DNA from: Pseudoxanthomonas dokdonensis
GTDB lineage: Bacteria; Pseudomonadota; Gammaproteobacteria; Xanthomonadales; Xanthomonadaceae
Assembly: GCF_001431405.1 (NCBI RefSeq)
Contig: NZ_LDJL01000004.1
Location: 62,001-126,000 of the forward strand
Reading direction: 5' to 3'
DNA length: 64,000 nt
Part shown: piece by piece, positions 60,072 to 63,879 of the stretch
Numbering within the stretch: the stretch's first letter is position 1
Layout of the letters: each line of letters begins with the position of its first letter
Position numbers and translations under genes: made by a program
The notes under the pieces: generated by a model
Told to the model about the DNA's origin: nothing
What the model saw: only the letters and a program-made list of their open reading frames with translations
Databases searched by the model: none

Positions 60072-60635
60072 ATGAGCAATTCCATGCCAGACCGTATGTA
60101 TCCCCGACCAGCCCTTTGCTTCCCACTGATACTGTTTTTCTGCAGTGCCTCCGCCGCGGCGCAGGAACGGGTGATCCAGTCCGAGAACATCCGCGTGGAA
60201 TATGCCGAGGTGCTGGAGGTGCAGCCGGTCTACCAGACCCTGACCGCGACCCGCACCGAGCAGCACTGCGATGAAGTGGTGGTCAAGCCCTCGGAAAAGA
60301 AGCGCAAGGACCGGCCCAGCCGCTGGGACCGCTTCCTGGCCTCGGTCAAGGGGGTGTTCACCAGCGATGACGACGAAGAGCAGGGCGAGGTCAAGTCCGA
60401 GCCGATCGAAACCGACGAAGGATTCAAGTTGAATTGCCGCAGCGTGCCGGTCGAGCGCGAGTTCCGCCGTCCCATCGCCTATGACGTGGACTATGTCTAC
60501 AAGGGCACCCGCTACCGTTCGCGGCTGGCCGAGGACCCGGGCGACCGCCTGCGCATCCGGGTATCGATCATGCCTTTCAGTGGCGACCTGGCCCCGGAGC
60601 CGCCGGCTGCGACGGCCGCCGATCCTGCGCAATAA
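60072..60635 (+). CDS. Exported protein of unknown function (YMGG/2TM-zipper outer-membrane-type relative)
   Basis: 187 residues (or 179 from ATG 60096, where the signal peptide MYPRPALCFPLILFFCSASAAAQ starts). VEYAEVLEVQPVYQTLTATRTEQHCDEV and the end CRSVPVEREFRRPIAYDVDYVYKGTRYRSRLAEDPGDRLRIRV-type sequence (around 118-165) look like the flanks of glycine-zipper 2TM surface proteins, but the zipper itself is replaced by a charged Lys/Asp/Glu-rich loop. Found between cysS (divergent) and the arginine leader. No function can be assigned. Confidence 0.7.
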   Translation: MSNSMPDRMYPRPALCFPLILFFCSASAAAQERVIQSENIRVEYAEVLEVQPVYQTLTATRTEQHCDEVVVKPSEKKRKDRPSRWDRFLASVKGVFTSDDDEEQGEVKSEPIETDEGFKLNCRSVPVEREFRRPIAYDVDYVYKGTRYRSRLAEDPGDRLRIRVSIMPFSGDLAPEPPAATAADPAQ

Positions 60636-60675
60636 ACGGTTGCGCTGCAACGCAGCACATGCGACGATCCGGCAA

Positions 60676-60768
60676 ATGAAGATGAATGCTCACGCACACG
60701 CAAGCAGTGCAGCCCGGATGGCCTCGGGCATGACCTCGCGTGCTCGTCGACCGGAAACCTGCTTCTAG
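60676..60768 (+). CDS. Arg-codon leader peptide upstream of argF'
   Basis: A 30-codon frame from ATG 60676 (or 28 codons from ATG 60682) ends at TAG 60766-60768. Near its end it has SRARRP, that is Arg at codons 60739, 60745 and 60748 (CGT, CGT, CGA), plus one Arg at 60715. The stop codon overlaps the first base of the antiterminator arm described separately. No strong ribosome site is seen (the sequence upstream is GATCCGGCAA). Composition and spacing are those of an amino-acid leader peptide; it resembles no sequence I recognise. Confidence 0.6.
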   Translation: MKMNAHAHASSAARMASGMTSRARRPETCF

Positions 60769-60810
60769 CTGGGTCACCGGACGTATTCGCTGTTTTTACC
60801 GGAACCCAGC
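60768..60810 (+). promoter_or_regulatory. Antiterminator stem (arginine attenuator, inferred)
   Basis: GCTGGGT (60768-60774) pairs with ACCCAGC (60804-60810), and CCGG (60777-60780) with CCGG (60799-60802), giving an 11-bp stem with a small bulge (CA opposite A) around an 18-base loop. It uses the same ACCCAGC that forms the left side of the terminator, so the two cannot coexist. Confidence 0.65.
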
Positions 60811-60834
60811 CTGGCGCTGGGTTTTTTCGTTTTT
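60804..60834 (+). terminator. Intrinsic terminator / attenuator before argF'
   Basis: ACCCAGC (60804-60810), loop CTGGC, GCTGGGT (60816-60822), then TTTTTTCGTTTTT. A strong U-tract. It ends only about 30 bases before the argF' ATG, so any arginine promoter is likely upstream of it. It could also terminate the upstream gene's transcript. Confidence 0.85.
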
Positions 60835-60864
60835 GGGCCGTCGTTGCAACCATGGGAAGCCTTG

Positions 60865-61866
60865 ATGAAGCACTTTTTGAATACGCAGGACTGGAGCCGT
60901 AGCGAACTGGACGCGTTGTTGACGCAGGCCGCGTTGTACAAACAGCACAAACTCGGCGACGCCCTGAAGGGCAAGTCGATTGCGCTGGTGTTCTTCAACC
61001 CGTCGATGCGCACCCGCACCAGCTTCGAGCTGGGGGCATTCCAGCTGGGCGGCCATGCGGTGGTGCTGCAGCCCGGCAAGGACGCCTGGCCGATTGAATT
61101 CAACCTCGGCACGGTGATGGACGGCGACACCGAGGAACACATCGCCGAAGTGGCCCGGGTACTGGGCCGCTATGTCGACCTGATCGGGGTGCGTGCGTTC
61201 CCGAAATTCGTTGACTGGGCCTATGACCGCCAGGACATCGTGCTGGAAAGCTTCGCCAGATATTCGCCGGTGCCGGTCATCAACATGGAAACCATCACCC
61301 ATCCCTGCCAGGAGCTGGCCCACGCGCTGGCCCTGCAGCAGCATTTCGGCACCCATGATCTACGCGGCAAGAAGTACGTGCTGACCTGGACCTACCATCC
61401 CAAGCCGTTGAACACCGCGGTTGCCAATTCCGCGCTGACCATCGCCACCCGGCTGGGCATGGACGTGACCCTGCTGTGTCCGACCGAGCAGTACATCCTG
61501 GATGAGCGCTACATGGGCTGGGCCGAACAGAATGTCGCCGAGAGCGGCGGCTCGCTGACCGTCAGCCACGACATCGACAGCGCCTATGCCGGCGCGGACG
61601 TGGTCTACGCCAAGAGCTGGGGTGCGCTGCCGTTCTTCGGCAACTGGGCCCCGGAAAAGCCGATCCGCGACCAGTACCAGCACTTCATCGTCGACGAGCG
61701 CAAGATGGCGCTGACCAACAACGGCGTCTTCAGCCACTGCCTGCCGCTGCGCCGCAACGTCAAGGCGACCGACGCAGTCATGGATTCACCGCAATGCATC
61801 GCCATCAACGAAGCCGAAAACCGCCTGCATGTGCAGAAAGCGATCATGGCTGCGTTGGTTGAATAA
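60865..61866 (+). CDS. argF': N-acetylornithine carbamoyltransferase
   Basis: 333 residues. KHFLNTQDWSRSELDALLTQAALYK is nearly the Xanthomonas AOTCase start. FFNPSMRTRTSFELG (carbamoyl phosphate site, SMRTR) and FSHCLPLRRN are present. This enzyme uses N-acetylornithine, not ornithine, which is the diagnostic arginine pathway of Xanthomonadaceae and some Bacteroidetes; the carbamoylation comes before deacetylation, so argE follows later in the cluster. ATG 60865 gives MKHFLNTQDW; an in-frame ATG at 60844 is less likely. Confidence 0.97.
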   Translation: MKHFLNTQDWSRSELDALLTQAALYKQHKLGDALKGKSIALVFFNPSMRTRTSFELGAFQLGGHAVVLQPGKDAWPIEFNLGTVMDGDTEEHIAEVARVLGRYVDLIGVRAFPKFVDWAYDRQDIVLESFARYSPVPVINMETITHPCQELAHALALQQHFGTHDLRGKKYVLTWTYHPKPLNTAVANSALTIATRLGMDVTLLCPTEQYILDERYMGWAEQNVAESGGSLTVSHDIDSAYAGADVVYAKSWGALPFFGNWAPEKPIRDQYQHFIVDERKMALTNNGVFSHCLPLRRNVKATDAVMDSPQCIAINEAENRLHVQKAIMAALVE

Positions 61867-61870
61867 CAAA

Positions 61871-62197
61871 GTTCTGCCCCTTCCTCCGCTTGCGGGGGAA
61901 GGCGGGGATGGGGGGAGCTTTACCACCAATGAAGTCACCCCGTTCTTTTTGCCCCCACCCCAACCCTCCCCCGTGAACGGGGGAGGGGGCTGAAACAGAG
62001 TTGATTGAGATATGGACGCAGGACCGGCATGACGAGCTACGGAAAAATCGTGTGCTCGGCCTTGGTCGAGCAACCAGGTTCTGCCCCTTCCTCCGCTTGC
62101 GGGGGAAGGCGGGGATGGGGGGCGCTTTCCCTGCAGTCACCCCGTTCCCTTTTGCCCCAACCCCAACCCTCCCCGTGAACGGGGGAGGGGCCTGAAA
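61871..62197. repeat. Two directly repeated C/G-rich hairpin units between argF' and argG
   Basis: Units at 61871-61996 and 62078-62197 are similar over about 120 bases (GTTCTGCCCCTTCCTCCGC at both starts). Each contains two stem-loops: CCTTCCTCCGC/GCGGGGGAAGG and CCCTCCCC(C)G/CGGGGGAGGG. Also shared is CACCCCGTTC. They fill the 362-base gap. There is no ORF in the gap, and no clear promoter for argG can be pointed to. Confidence 0.85.
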
Positions 62198-62228: not shown

Positions 62229-63428
62229 ATGAACACTTCCAACAAAGACATCGTGCTGGCTTTTTCCGGCGGCCTGGATACCAGTTTCTGCGTGCCTTAT
62301 CTGCAGGAGCAGGGCTACAACGTGCACACCGTGTTTGCCGACACCGGCGGCGTCGATGCCGAGGAGCGTGATTTCATCGAAAAGCGCGCGGCCGAGTTGG
62401 GCGCTGCCAGCCACCTGACCATCGATGGCGGTCCGGCCATCTGGGACGGCTTCGTCAAGCCGTTCGTATGGGCCGGTGAAGGCTACCAGGGCCAGTACCC
62501 GCTGATGGTGTCGGACCGTTATCTGATCGTCGATGCCACCCTCAAGCGCGCCGCCGAGCTTGGTACCCGCTCGATAGCCCACGGTTGCACCGGCATGGGC
62601 AACGATCAGGTCCGCTTCGATCTGGCCGTCAAGGCGTCCGGCGACTACCACATCGTCGCGCCGATCCGCGAAATCCAGAAAGAGCACACCCAGACCCGCG
62701 CCTACGAGCAGAAATACCTGGAAGACCGCGGCTTCGGCGTGCGCGCCAAGCAGAAGGCCTACACCATCAACGAAAACCTACTGGGGGTGACCATGTCCGG
62801 CGGCGAAATCGACCGCTGGGAAGCGCCCGGTGACGGTGCCCGAGGCTGGTGCGCGCCGCGCAGTGCGTGGCCGAGCGAACCGTTGACCGTTTCGCTGAAG
62901 TTCGTCAATGGCGAAGCCGTCGAGCTGGATGGCAAGCCGCTGGAAGGCGCCAGGATCCTGGCCAAGCTCAACACCTTGTTCGCGCAGTACGGTGTTGGCC
63001 GTGGCATCTACACCGGCGACACCACCATCGGCCTGAAGGGCCGCATCGTGTTCGAAGCCCCGGGCCTGGTGGCGCTGTTGACCGCCCATCGCGCGCTGGA
63101 AGAAGCCGTGCTCAGCAAGCAGCAGAACCGCTTCAAGCCCGAGGTCGCGCGCAAGTGGGTCGAGCTGGTCTATGAAGGCTTTTTCCACGATCCGCTGAAG
63201 ACCGATCTGGAAGCGTTCCTGGCGTCGTCGCAGTCCACCGTCAATGGCGAAGTGGTGCTGGAAACCCGTGGCGGTCGCGTCGATGCAGTGGCGATCAAGT
63301 CGCCGCACTTGCTGCATGCCAAGGGGGCGACCTACGCGCAGTCGGCCGACTGGGGCGTGGAAGAGGCCGAAGGCTTCATCAAGCTGTTCGGCATGAGCAG
63401 CACGCTGTGGGCGGAAATCAACCGCTGA
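62229..63428 (+). CDS. argG: Argininosuccinate synthase
   Basis: 399 residues. ATP-dependent condensation of citrulline and aspartate. The pyrophosphatase-type P-loop [10 protein letters not shown] (about 11-20), [14 protein letters not shown] and [10 protein letters not shown] are intact. Joined to argF' by a repeat-bearing gap and to the following GNAT gene by 16 bases. Start ATG 62229. Confidence 0.97.
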
Positions 63429-63444: not shown

Positions 63445-63879
63445 ATGAGCGAACTGCGCATCAGCACTGACAAGGACGAGCTGGATCTGGCAATGATCCA
63501 TCGCTACCTGAGCAGCGAAGCCTACTGGAGCCGCGGCATCCCGATGGCGACGCTGGAGCAGGCGGTGGCGGGTTCGTTCTGTTTCGGCGGCTATCTGGCC
63601 GATGCTGGACAGGTGGCCTTCGCCCGGGTGGTGACCGATCACGCCACATTCGGTTACCTGGCCGATGTGTTCGTGTTGCCGGCCTGGCGCGGGCAGGGTT
63701 ACAGCAAGCAGCTGGTCGCCGCGATCATGGCCCACCCGCGCCTGCAGGGCCTGCGCCGGTTCATGCTGGCCACCGCCGATGCGCATTCGCTGTACGCACG
63801 GCATGGATTCGCCGCCCCGGCCAGGCCGCAAACGCTGATGGAAATCAGTCGTCCCGACATCTATCTGGCCAAGGCCTGA
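63445..63879 (+). CDS. GNAT-family N-acetyltransferase in the arginine cluster
   Basis: 144 residues. VFVLPAWRGQGYSKQLVAAIM is GNAT motif A (acetyl-CoA loop RGQGYS, about 80-85). Located between argG and argE, as in xanthomonad arginine clusters, where acetyltransferases serve the acetylated intermediates. Whether it makes N-acetylglutamate or has another acceptor cannot be told. Starts 16 bases after argG. Confidence 0.85.
   Translation: MSELRISTDKDELDLAMIHRYLSSEAYWSRGIPMATLEQAVAGSFCFGGYLADAGQVAFARVVTDHATFGYLADVFVLPAWRGQGYSKQLVAAIMAHPRLQGLRRFMLATADAHSLYARHGFAAPARPQTLMEISRPDIYLAKA

Follow-up and report, generated by a model that had tools for sequence, protein, structure and literature searches.

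The locus examined here raises the question of how arginine synthesis could be controlled in an order of bacteria (Xanthomonas, Stenotrophomonas, Lysobacter, Pseudoxanthomonas and relatives) most of whose genomes have no match to the repressor ArgR. The window, that is, the whole analysed stretch of 64,000 nucleotides from Pseudoxanthomonas dokdonensis, contains argF', and the initial annotation had ascribed to the region before this gene the logic of trp/his attenuation, applied to arginine. This proposal is supported by the conservation of the Arg codons, by covariation, by spacing and by the position of the transcription start. With a probability of roughly 0.87, we consider that a ribosome-mediated, arginine-specific transcription attenuator of the trp/his type precedes the argF'-argG-...-argB-argC-argH cluster. 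Judged from sequence, the attenuator appears to be real and order-wide, and it would respond to arginine; it offers a concrete answer to the question above.

The genes next to the element are the following.

60072-60635, + strand: upstream gene, on the same strand as the leader and argF'
60865-61866, + strand: argF', N-acetylornithine carbamoyltransferase, with an ATG start (NCBIfam NF003384, 639.6 bits against a cut-off of 288)
62229-63428, + strand: argG, argininosuccinate synthase (NCBIfam NF003385)

The frame of argF' is open already from TTG 60844. Past argG, the same strand carries a short ORF, an acetylornithine-deacetylase-like (argE-like) gene, argB, an ORF with an acetyltransferase domain, argC and argH (partly beyond the window), and proB and proA come after argH. 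The genes from argF' and argG through argB, argC and argH probably form one operon. The ORF 63445-63879 had no NCBIfam match; its X. sacchari counterpart is annotated as GNAT, which makes it a probable acetyltransferase by annotation alone. A second probable acetyltransferase ORF of the arginine cluster, with an acetyltransferase-domain match, lies at 6896-7531 of L322. The argB of the cluster codes for 438 amino acids and is of the longer PRK04531 type. A GC-rich repeat is found twice between argF' and argG, at 61865-61995 and 62072-62197 (60 nt at 93% and 66 nt at 83%), and these intergenic copies could affect the read-through from argF' to argG. Outside the order, the identity of carbamoyltransferases was at most 42% over the full length and 47% in one partial match, among the matches listed.

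The leader proposed for argF' contains a small reading frame with a cluster of Arg codons.

60676-60768, + strand: leader peptide ORF, MKMNAHAHASSAARMASGMTSRARRPETCF followed by the stop codon, running from ATG 60676 or ATG 60682 to TAG 60766-60768 (30 or 28 codons)
60739-60750, + strand: control region, with Arg CGT 60739, Ala, Arg CGT 60745 and Arg CGA 60748

When checked base by base, the limits of this ORF, the three Arg codons, the pairing segments and the T-run all lay exactly where the initial annotation had placed them. A fourth Arg codon of the leader, CGG 60715, was absent from it.

For the comparison of leaders, a core set of 185 loci from four families was assembled; eight of them repeat the leader sequence of another locus, leaving 177 distinct leaders, and L260 (64 nt at a contig end) and L171 (the same as L035) were left out. 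The leader was found in 80/80 named argF' loci (the best 80 of 402 relatives in a scan of GTDB contigs), in all 80 further upstream regions of the family, four of which duplicate the leader sequence of a named locus, and in all 25 usable loci of the families f12, f2 and f3. For the 80 further upstream regions, a hand selection covering a spread of genera was made among the 197 family genomes with a match, and another 80, outside the family, were taken from 145 genomes of the order with a match. The search of plasmids gave one record, L326 (NZ_CP010410.1), a 508 kb sequence of Xanthomonas sacchari carrying the argF'-argG-GNAT region and a leader match; this "plasmid" is perhaps a mislabelled piece of the chromosome. 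Among the phages searched, no record had a match.

The motif MTSRARR stands in frame in 185/185 core loci (177 distinct), and its ATG is kept in 175 of the 177 distinct leaders. Across the four families, Arg occupies codons +3 and +5 in 177/177 distinct leaders and codon +6 in 175/177; the other two have Thr and then Arg there, giving R-A-R-T-R, not R-A-R-R. Expressed as pairwise counts and not as events, the single-base codon differences for the leader ORF were 42714 synonymous and 13248 nonsynonymous in 145 distinct segments, a ratio of 3.2, compared with ratios of 0.28 and 0.05 in the control frames of the same alignment. For the seven codons of MTSRARR, the corresponding counts in the 145 distinct segments were 21081 and 383. 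Such a codon signature in one frame is what an attenuator with a translated leader ORF between the promoter and the first gene would be expected to leave. Since the core motif has only three close Arg residues, the metric of at least four Arg in eight residues fails on the core set (30% in the leaders, against 25% for the opposite strand and 20% for shuffles), and the tests of frame and conservation were used.

The choice of codons is also conserved. The rare codon CGA stands at +6 in 170 of the 177 distinct leaders (60748-60750 in the window), and in the argF' genes of 80 loci CGA makes up only 13 of 1272 Arg codons (~1%). At codons +3 and +5, CGU or CGC is used in 353 of 354 cases. CGU, CGC and CGA are all read by a single tRNA-Arg isoacceptor. 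The N-terminal half of the ORF is under little codon-level constraint, with an ambiguous signal, and therefore ribosomes may start at the conserved internal ATG of MTSRARR instead of the 5' ATG. The leader peptide of the window matched no Pfam or NCBIfam family at E values up to 1, PF10940 included. As a DNA pattern, MTSRARR had one match in the genome of the window and was found in 3 of 274 genomes of the class, all within the family to which the window belongs.

Downstream of the Arg codons lie the segments of a putative RNA switch.

60751-60762, + strand: segment B, beginning with CCGGAAACC, which can pair with C (pairing '1:2') and was seen in the fold
60768-60780, + strand: segment C, the 5' arm of the antiterminator (GCTGGGT-CA-CCGG), overlapped by the stop codon
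60799-60810, + strand: segment D, the shared arm (CCGG-A-ACCCAGC), forming the antiterminator with C or the terminator with E
60816-60834, + strand: segment E (GCTGGGT 60816-60822) and the T-run (T6-CG-T5), an intrinsic terminator with D

A pattern scan of 60300-61200 gave four terminator sites against 0.8 expected; the one before argF' is the sole site on the + strand, and three are on the - strand. The terminator is present in 184 of the 185 core loci (176/177 distinct). With loci taken as independent and shared ancestry ignored, as in all pairing and covariation counts given here, segments C and D form six or seven of their seven core pairs in 164/176 distinct leaders with a terminator and fewer than six in the other 12. 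Together with the base-by-base check, these counts bear out that the stop codon overlaps C and that D is shared by C and E, as had been proposed. Near the stop codon, the sequence most complementary to D had a median score of 19 over 184 loci (a few of them duplicates), compared with 11 for shuffles and 10 for an upstream control stretch; about 1% of the shuffles reach 19. Segment D alternates between the types CCCAGC and CCCGGC, and E tracks D with one exception. Where the fifth base of D is G, segment C offers the matching base C in 24 loci and the wobble base U in 10; where it is A, segment C offers U in 126 loci and a mismatch in four.

The spacing of the segments is nearly fixed as well. 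Among the 166 leaders with a strong C, the distance from the last Arg codon to the start of C is 20-22 nt in 154; the stop codon lies 6-8 nt inside C in 131 of these 166 and begins 2-8 nt before C in 35. This arrangement, typical of attenuators, would free the antiterminator arm when the ribosome stalls and mask it when the ribosome is at the stop codon. In one locus, L165, the usual stop within C is lost and the ORF continues through the terminator, which may be a natural variant or an assembly error. The leaders of 184 loci were folded with the ribosome placed on Arg, so that the RNA was freed 13 nt past the Arg codon, and the median for the antiterminator stretch was then -19.3 kcal/mol. 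The same stretch reached a median of only -3.7 kcal/mol once the ribosome stood at the stop codon, and the terminator had one of -17.7 kcal/mol; the values for the window were -16.6, -3.4 and -14.3 kcal/mol, respectively. An antiterminator and an intrinsic terminator that exclude each other, as attenuators have them, are thus predicted by the folding. The 5' pairing of the Arg-codon segment (B) with C appears in many single folds and is weak, with a class median z of -0.36 (183 loci). The initial annotation had made its case depend on the conservation of the Arg run and of the second pairing in relatives; both are conserved there, with covariation and a fixed spacing.

The start of the transcript was placed by means of a promoter search and of an RNA family in Rfam.

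60640-60668, + strand: sigma70-like promoter (TTGCGC 60640-60645, 17 nt, GACGAT 60663-60668)
60674, + strand: probable transcription start, where position 1 of the Rfam Xoo5 model corresponds to the RACE-mapped 5' end in X. oryzae
60674-60796, + strand: hit of the Rfam family RF02242 "Xoo5", scoring 77.1 bits (gathering threshold 50) over the full length of the model, 124 positions

Both in the window and in loci of the Xanthomonas type, model position 1 falls 2 nt ahead of the leader's ATG. Transcription probably starts there or, by promoter spacing, at the ATG itself, as the 5' end mapped in the relative X. oryzae suggests. According to the initial annotation, a start downstream of 60804 would have contradicted the proposal; the mapped X. 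oryzae end aligns to 60674, and a promoter of the form TTG-N3-N16..18-hexamer, with the -10 element ending 4-12 nt before the leader start, is present in 142 of 185 loci (135/177 distinct) and in 2.3% of shuffles. A stricter consensus promoter scan found none at the leader of the window. Of the 185 loci, 41 have a four-mer resembling the Shine-Dalgarno sequence ahead of the leader start, and 76 have one ahead of argF'. The weak ribosome site that had been named as the main doubt is therefore a correct observation that loses its force as a doubt, because a near-leaderless ATG, 0-2 nt from the probable 5' end, predicts no Shine-Dalgarno sequence. The leader peptide is probably near-leaderless, with its translation starting at the 5' end of the RNA. 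The open-licence papers listed for leaderless transcripts of Xanthomonas contained nothing pertinent.

Meanwhile, the eight outer families of the order, sampled at 54 loci, lack the MTSRARR peptide, and a terminator is found at 45 of these loci. For these, a leader ORF was required to end 10-60 nt before the terminator. At least three Arg in seven residues were present in the leader ORF of 41 of the 45 terminator-bearing upstream regions (12.3% in shuffles), and at least four in 33 of them (2.1% in shuffles); among the 12 residues compared, the runner-up was Val, with 13/45 and 2/45, respectively. The outer leader peptides differ from each other, as in VVVRRRRPVKRMELFG and FIRRLRRPGFY. A C:D pairing of strong score was found in 24 of the 41 outer leaders (6% in shuffles), the other 17 being without a strong C, and in 12 of these 24 the distance from the last Arg codon to the start of C is exactly 21 nt (range 12-31). 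One outer family has rewritten the whole trio as CCAGGTT / AACCTGG / CCAGGTT. Unlike peptides that share the same codons and a common spacing are what the sensing of codons by a ribosome predicts, and several codons for the operon's own amino acid, a mark of attenuators, are present in these leaders too.

In the family f9, the leader test was passed by only 9 of 18 loci, and no ArgR match was found there. The f9 loci L274, L290, L299, L303, L308, L311 and L314 have an argF' upstream region with no terminator in its last 200 nt and no ArgR match; they are either under another control or have argF' within a longer operon. ArgR (PF01316) matched 0/60 genomes of the family, that of the window included, and 9 of 14 controls, E. 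coli among them. Across the order, it matched 8 of 151 genomes, all of the family f11, and none of the other 143. No more than ~1.5 kb separates the argR gene of f11 from a carbamoyltransferase gene whose identity is only 38-43% (e.g. G255:C58, G224:C6), and the two f11 upstream regions examined contained no leader under the placement rule. A looser search finds Arg-rich ORFs by chance, for example in both of these f11 regions, which fail that rule. The control of argF' as a member of an ArgR regulon was set aside on the lack of a PF01316 match in the genome of the window. In 21 relatives, the same test for an Arg leader was passed by 1 of 20 upstream regions of carA and by 0/20 of argS; terminators were present in 12/20 of the former (by a loose rule) and 4/20 of the latter. 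Arginine genes as a whole do not share the Arg leader.

The match to Xoo5 connects the leader with an RNA that is already known. The only Rfam matches of the window at gathering thresholds are Xoo5 and two tRNAs. At E values up to 0.001, 146 of 198 family genomes contain RF02242, 82 of them with a score over the cut-off. When loci were fetched with the Xoo5 model rather than with argF', argF' was the next gene in 30/30. In X. oryzae, sRNA-Xoo5 sits between PXO_00354 and PXO_00353, the latter named N-acetylornithine carbamoyltransferase; its 5' end was determined by RACE and its 3' end from a cloned sequence of 124 nt, and Northern bands of ~130 and ~100 nt were both seen in early growth and the shorter alone later (PMC3039613). 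With all 124 model positions matched and the same neighbouring gene, Xoo5 and the leader of the window are the same RNA. The terminated leader is predicted to be ~158 nt long in the Xanthomonas loci examined; since the bands and the clone are shorter than this, Xoo5 does not simply correspond to the whole terminated leader, and processing, or another end, is assumed. The cloned 3' end falls between C and D, ahead of the terminator; Xoo5 may be cleaved within this spacer. We infer that the attenuated leader is at least partly the RNA catalogued as sRNA-Xoo5. In the sections of the Xoo5 report available to us (PMC3039613), the RNA is called an sRNA with no function assigned, and a leader ORF, Arg codons, an antiterminator or control of argF' are not mentioned. 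The initial annotation knew of no described Arg leader attenuator at this gene. This holds in so far as the open-licence literature searched, beside which subscription journals could hold more, contained no report of the argF' element as an attenuator; the RNA itself was already in Rfam, and that same literature describes it solely as an sRNA.

The basis for a mechanism consists of the anatomy of the leader, its conservation, covariation and spacing, the absence of an ArgR match and the 5' end mapped in one relative. From these, we infer the stalling of the ribosome, the antitermination switch, the direction of the arginine response and the control of the genes beyond argF'. The transcript would begin at the ATG of the leader peptide or 2 nt before it, and ribosomes would load on its 5' end. 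Under a shortage of charged tRNA-Arg, the ribosome would stall at the CGT-Ala-CGT-CGA run and leave C, which lies 20-21 nt downstream, free to pair with D, so that RNA polymerase would read into argF'. When arginine is plentiful, the ribosome would proceed to the stop codon in or at C and mask this arm; D would then pair with E, and transcription would end before argF'. In this way, the leader switch would stand in for ArgR, which is unfound in most of the order.

A different account of the same anatomy is that the MTSRARR peptide itself halts the ribosome, perhaps together with arginine or a pathway intermediate, and so drives the same switch. The residues A-x-x-A-[SA]-[GS]-M-T-S-R-A-R-R-P around the motif are kept as amino acids, with synonymous change, in four families, and SpeFL/ORF34 provides the precedent of a conserved Arg-containing leader peptide. 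This conservation of the flanks exceeds the need of codon sensing, which keeps an arrest by the nascent chain, possibly with a ligand, in play. We consider it unlikely nonetheless, since the outer families keep their Arg runs, and many of them the 21-nt spacing, with other peptides, and since R-A-R-T-R has replaced R-A-R-R in two core loci; moreover, an arrest caused by arginine would presumably antiterminate here, the wrong sign for feedback. Somewhat more doubtful still is a dual sensor, in which the leader, started at the RNA 5' end, would count charged tRNA-Arg through CGU, CGC and CGA, and the chain A-[SA]-[GS]-M-T-S-R-A-R-R-P would in addition cause ribosome arrest and might sense a metabolite of the pathway, for example the argF' substrate N-acetylornithine, with the rare CGA as a pausing point.

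It is quite improbable that the RNA is a trans-acting sRNA with its own terminator that merely precedes argF'. Both Rfam and PMC3039613 treat Xoo5 as an sRNA, and its size on Northern blots varies with the growth phase in the part of that report available; yet what is conserved in Xoo5 is a reading frame whose codon signature is strong, the covariation in its 3' half is that of a switch and not of a single fold, argF' follows in every locus found with the Xoo5 model, and the MTSRARR pattern occurs once in the genome of the window. The leader RNA may act in trans additionally. A metabolite riboswitch or a T-box would also be a cis-acting RNA with a terminator ahead of a biosynthetic gene, and we regard it as very improbable: Xoo5 is the sole Rfam match in the leader at gathering thresholds, and the conservation is protein-like and confined to one frame. 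Practically no weight is left for an ordinary terminator of the gene at 60072-60635 combined with a chance ORF. A gene on the same strand does precede the element, but promoter-like elements and the 5' end mapped in a relative fall inside the gap, and the ORF and the C:D pairing are conserved; we judge this reading refuted by the conservation tests. A second, upstream start that reads through could use the same terminator.

The ribosome-mediated attenuator favoured here can be compared with several known systems, as described in the accessible parts of the respective reports. In the leader of Salmonella speF, consecutive Arg codons of SpeFL/ORF34 sense arginine, and low arginine favours expression (PMC6386406). 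The argF' leader is alike in having Arg codons in a leader ORF; SpeFL differs in its means of action, namely Rho, RNase G and an RNA structure that covers the ribosome site, in serving a polyamine gene and in having a PF10940 peptide (PMC6386406). In S. aureus rbfL, too, the Arg codons of a short peptide sense arginine shortage; unlike the argF' leader, it blocks the ribosome site and so acts on translation, low arginine represses, and the target is a biofilm regulator (PMC13009471). As far as the available parts show, neither of these leaders is a transcription attenuator of arginine synthesis (PMC6386406, PMC13009471). The carA gene of P. aeruginosa and P. syringae shares with argF' a 5' leader with proposed attenuation at an arginine/pyrimidine gene, and a leader peptide has been reported in P. 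aeruginosa; there, in contrast, attenuation is attributed to pyrimidines, and no start codon was seen in the P. syringae leader (PMC4997734). In a survey of premature terminators, a term search of the main text gave no "arginine" or "argF" (PMC2965389).

The closest likeness is to the amino-acid attenuators in the leaders of trp, his, leu, thr and other operons, for which a model is given in PMC1183508. Like these, the argF' leader has codons for its own amino acid, an antiterminator and a terminator that would exclude each other, and a stop codon placed so that a finishing ribosome would mask the antiterminator arm (PMC1183508). If our reading is true, arginine joins the amino acids sensed by the classical transcription attenuation of biosynthetic operons, and a catalogued "sRNA" is to be read anew as a cis switch. 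It would also be a natural case of an attenuator peptide that begins at the 5' end of its RNA, with ribosome loading locked to the start of transcription. Unlike the attenuators of that model, the argF' leader has a weak 5' anti-antiterminator pairing and sits where the usual repressor is unfound; it further differs from them in being directed to arginine, in its leaderless or near-leaderless ORF and in a peptide context conserved in four families.
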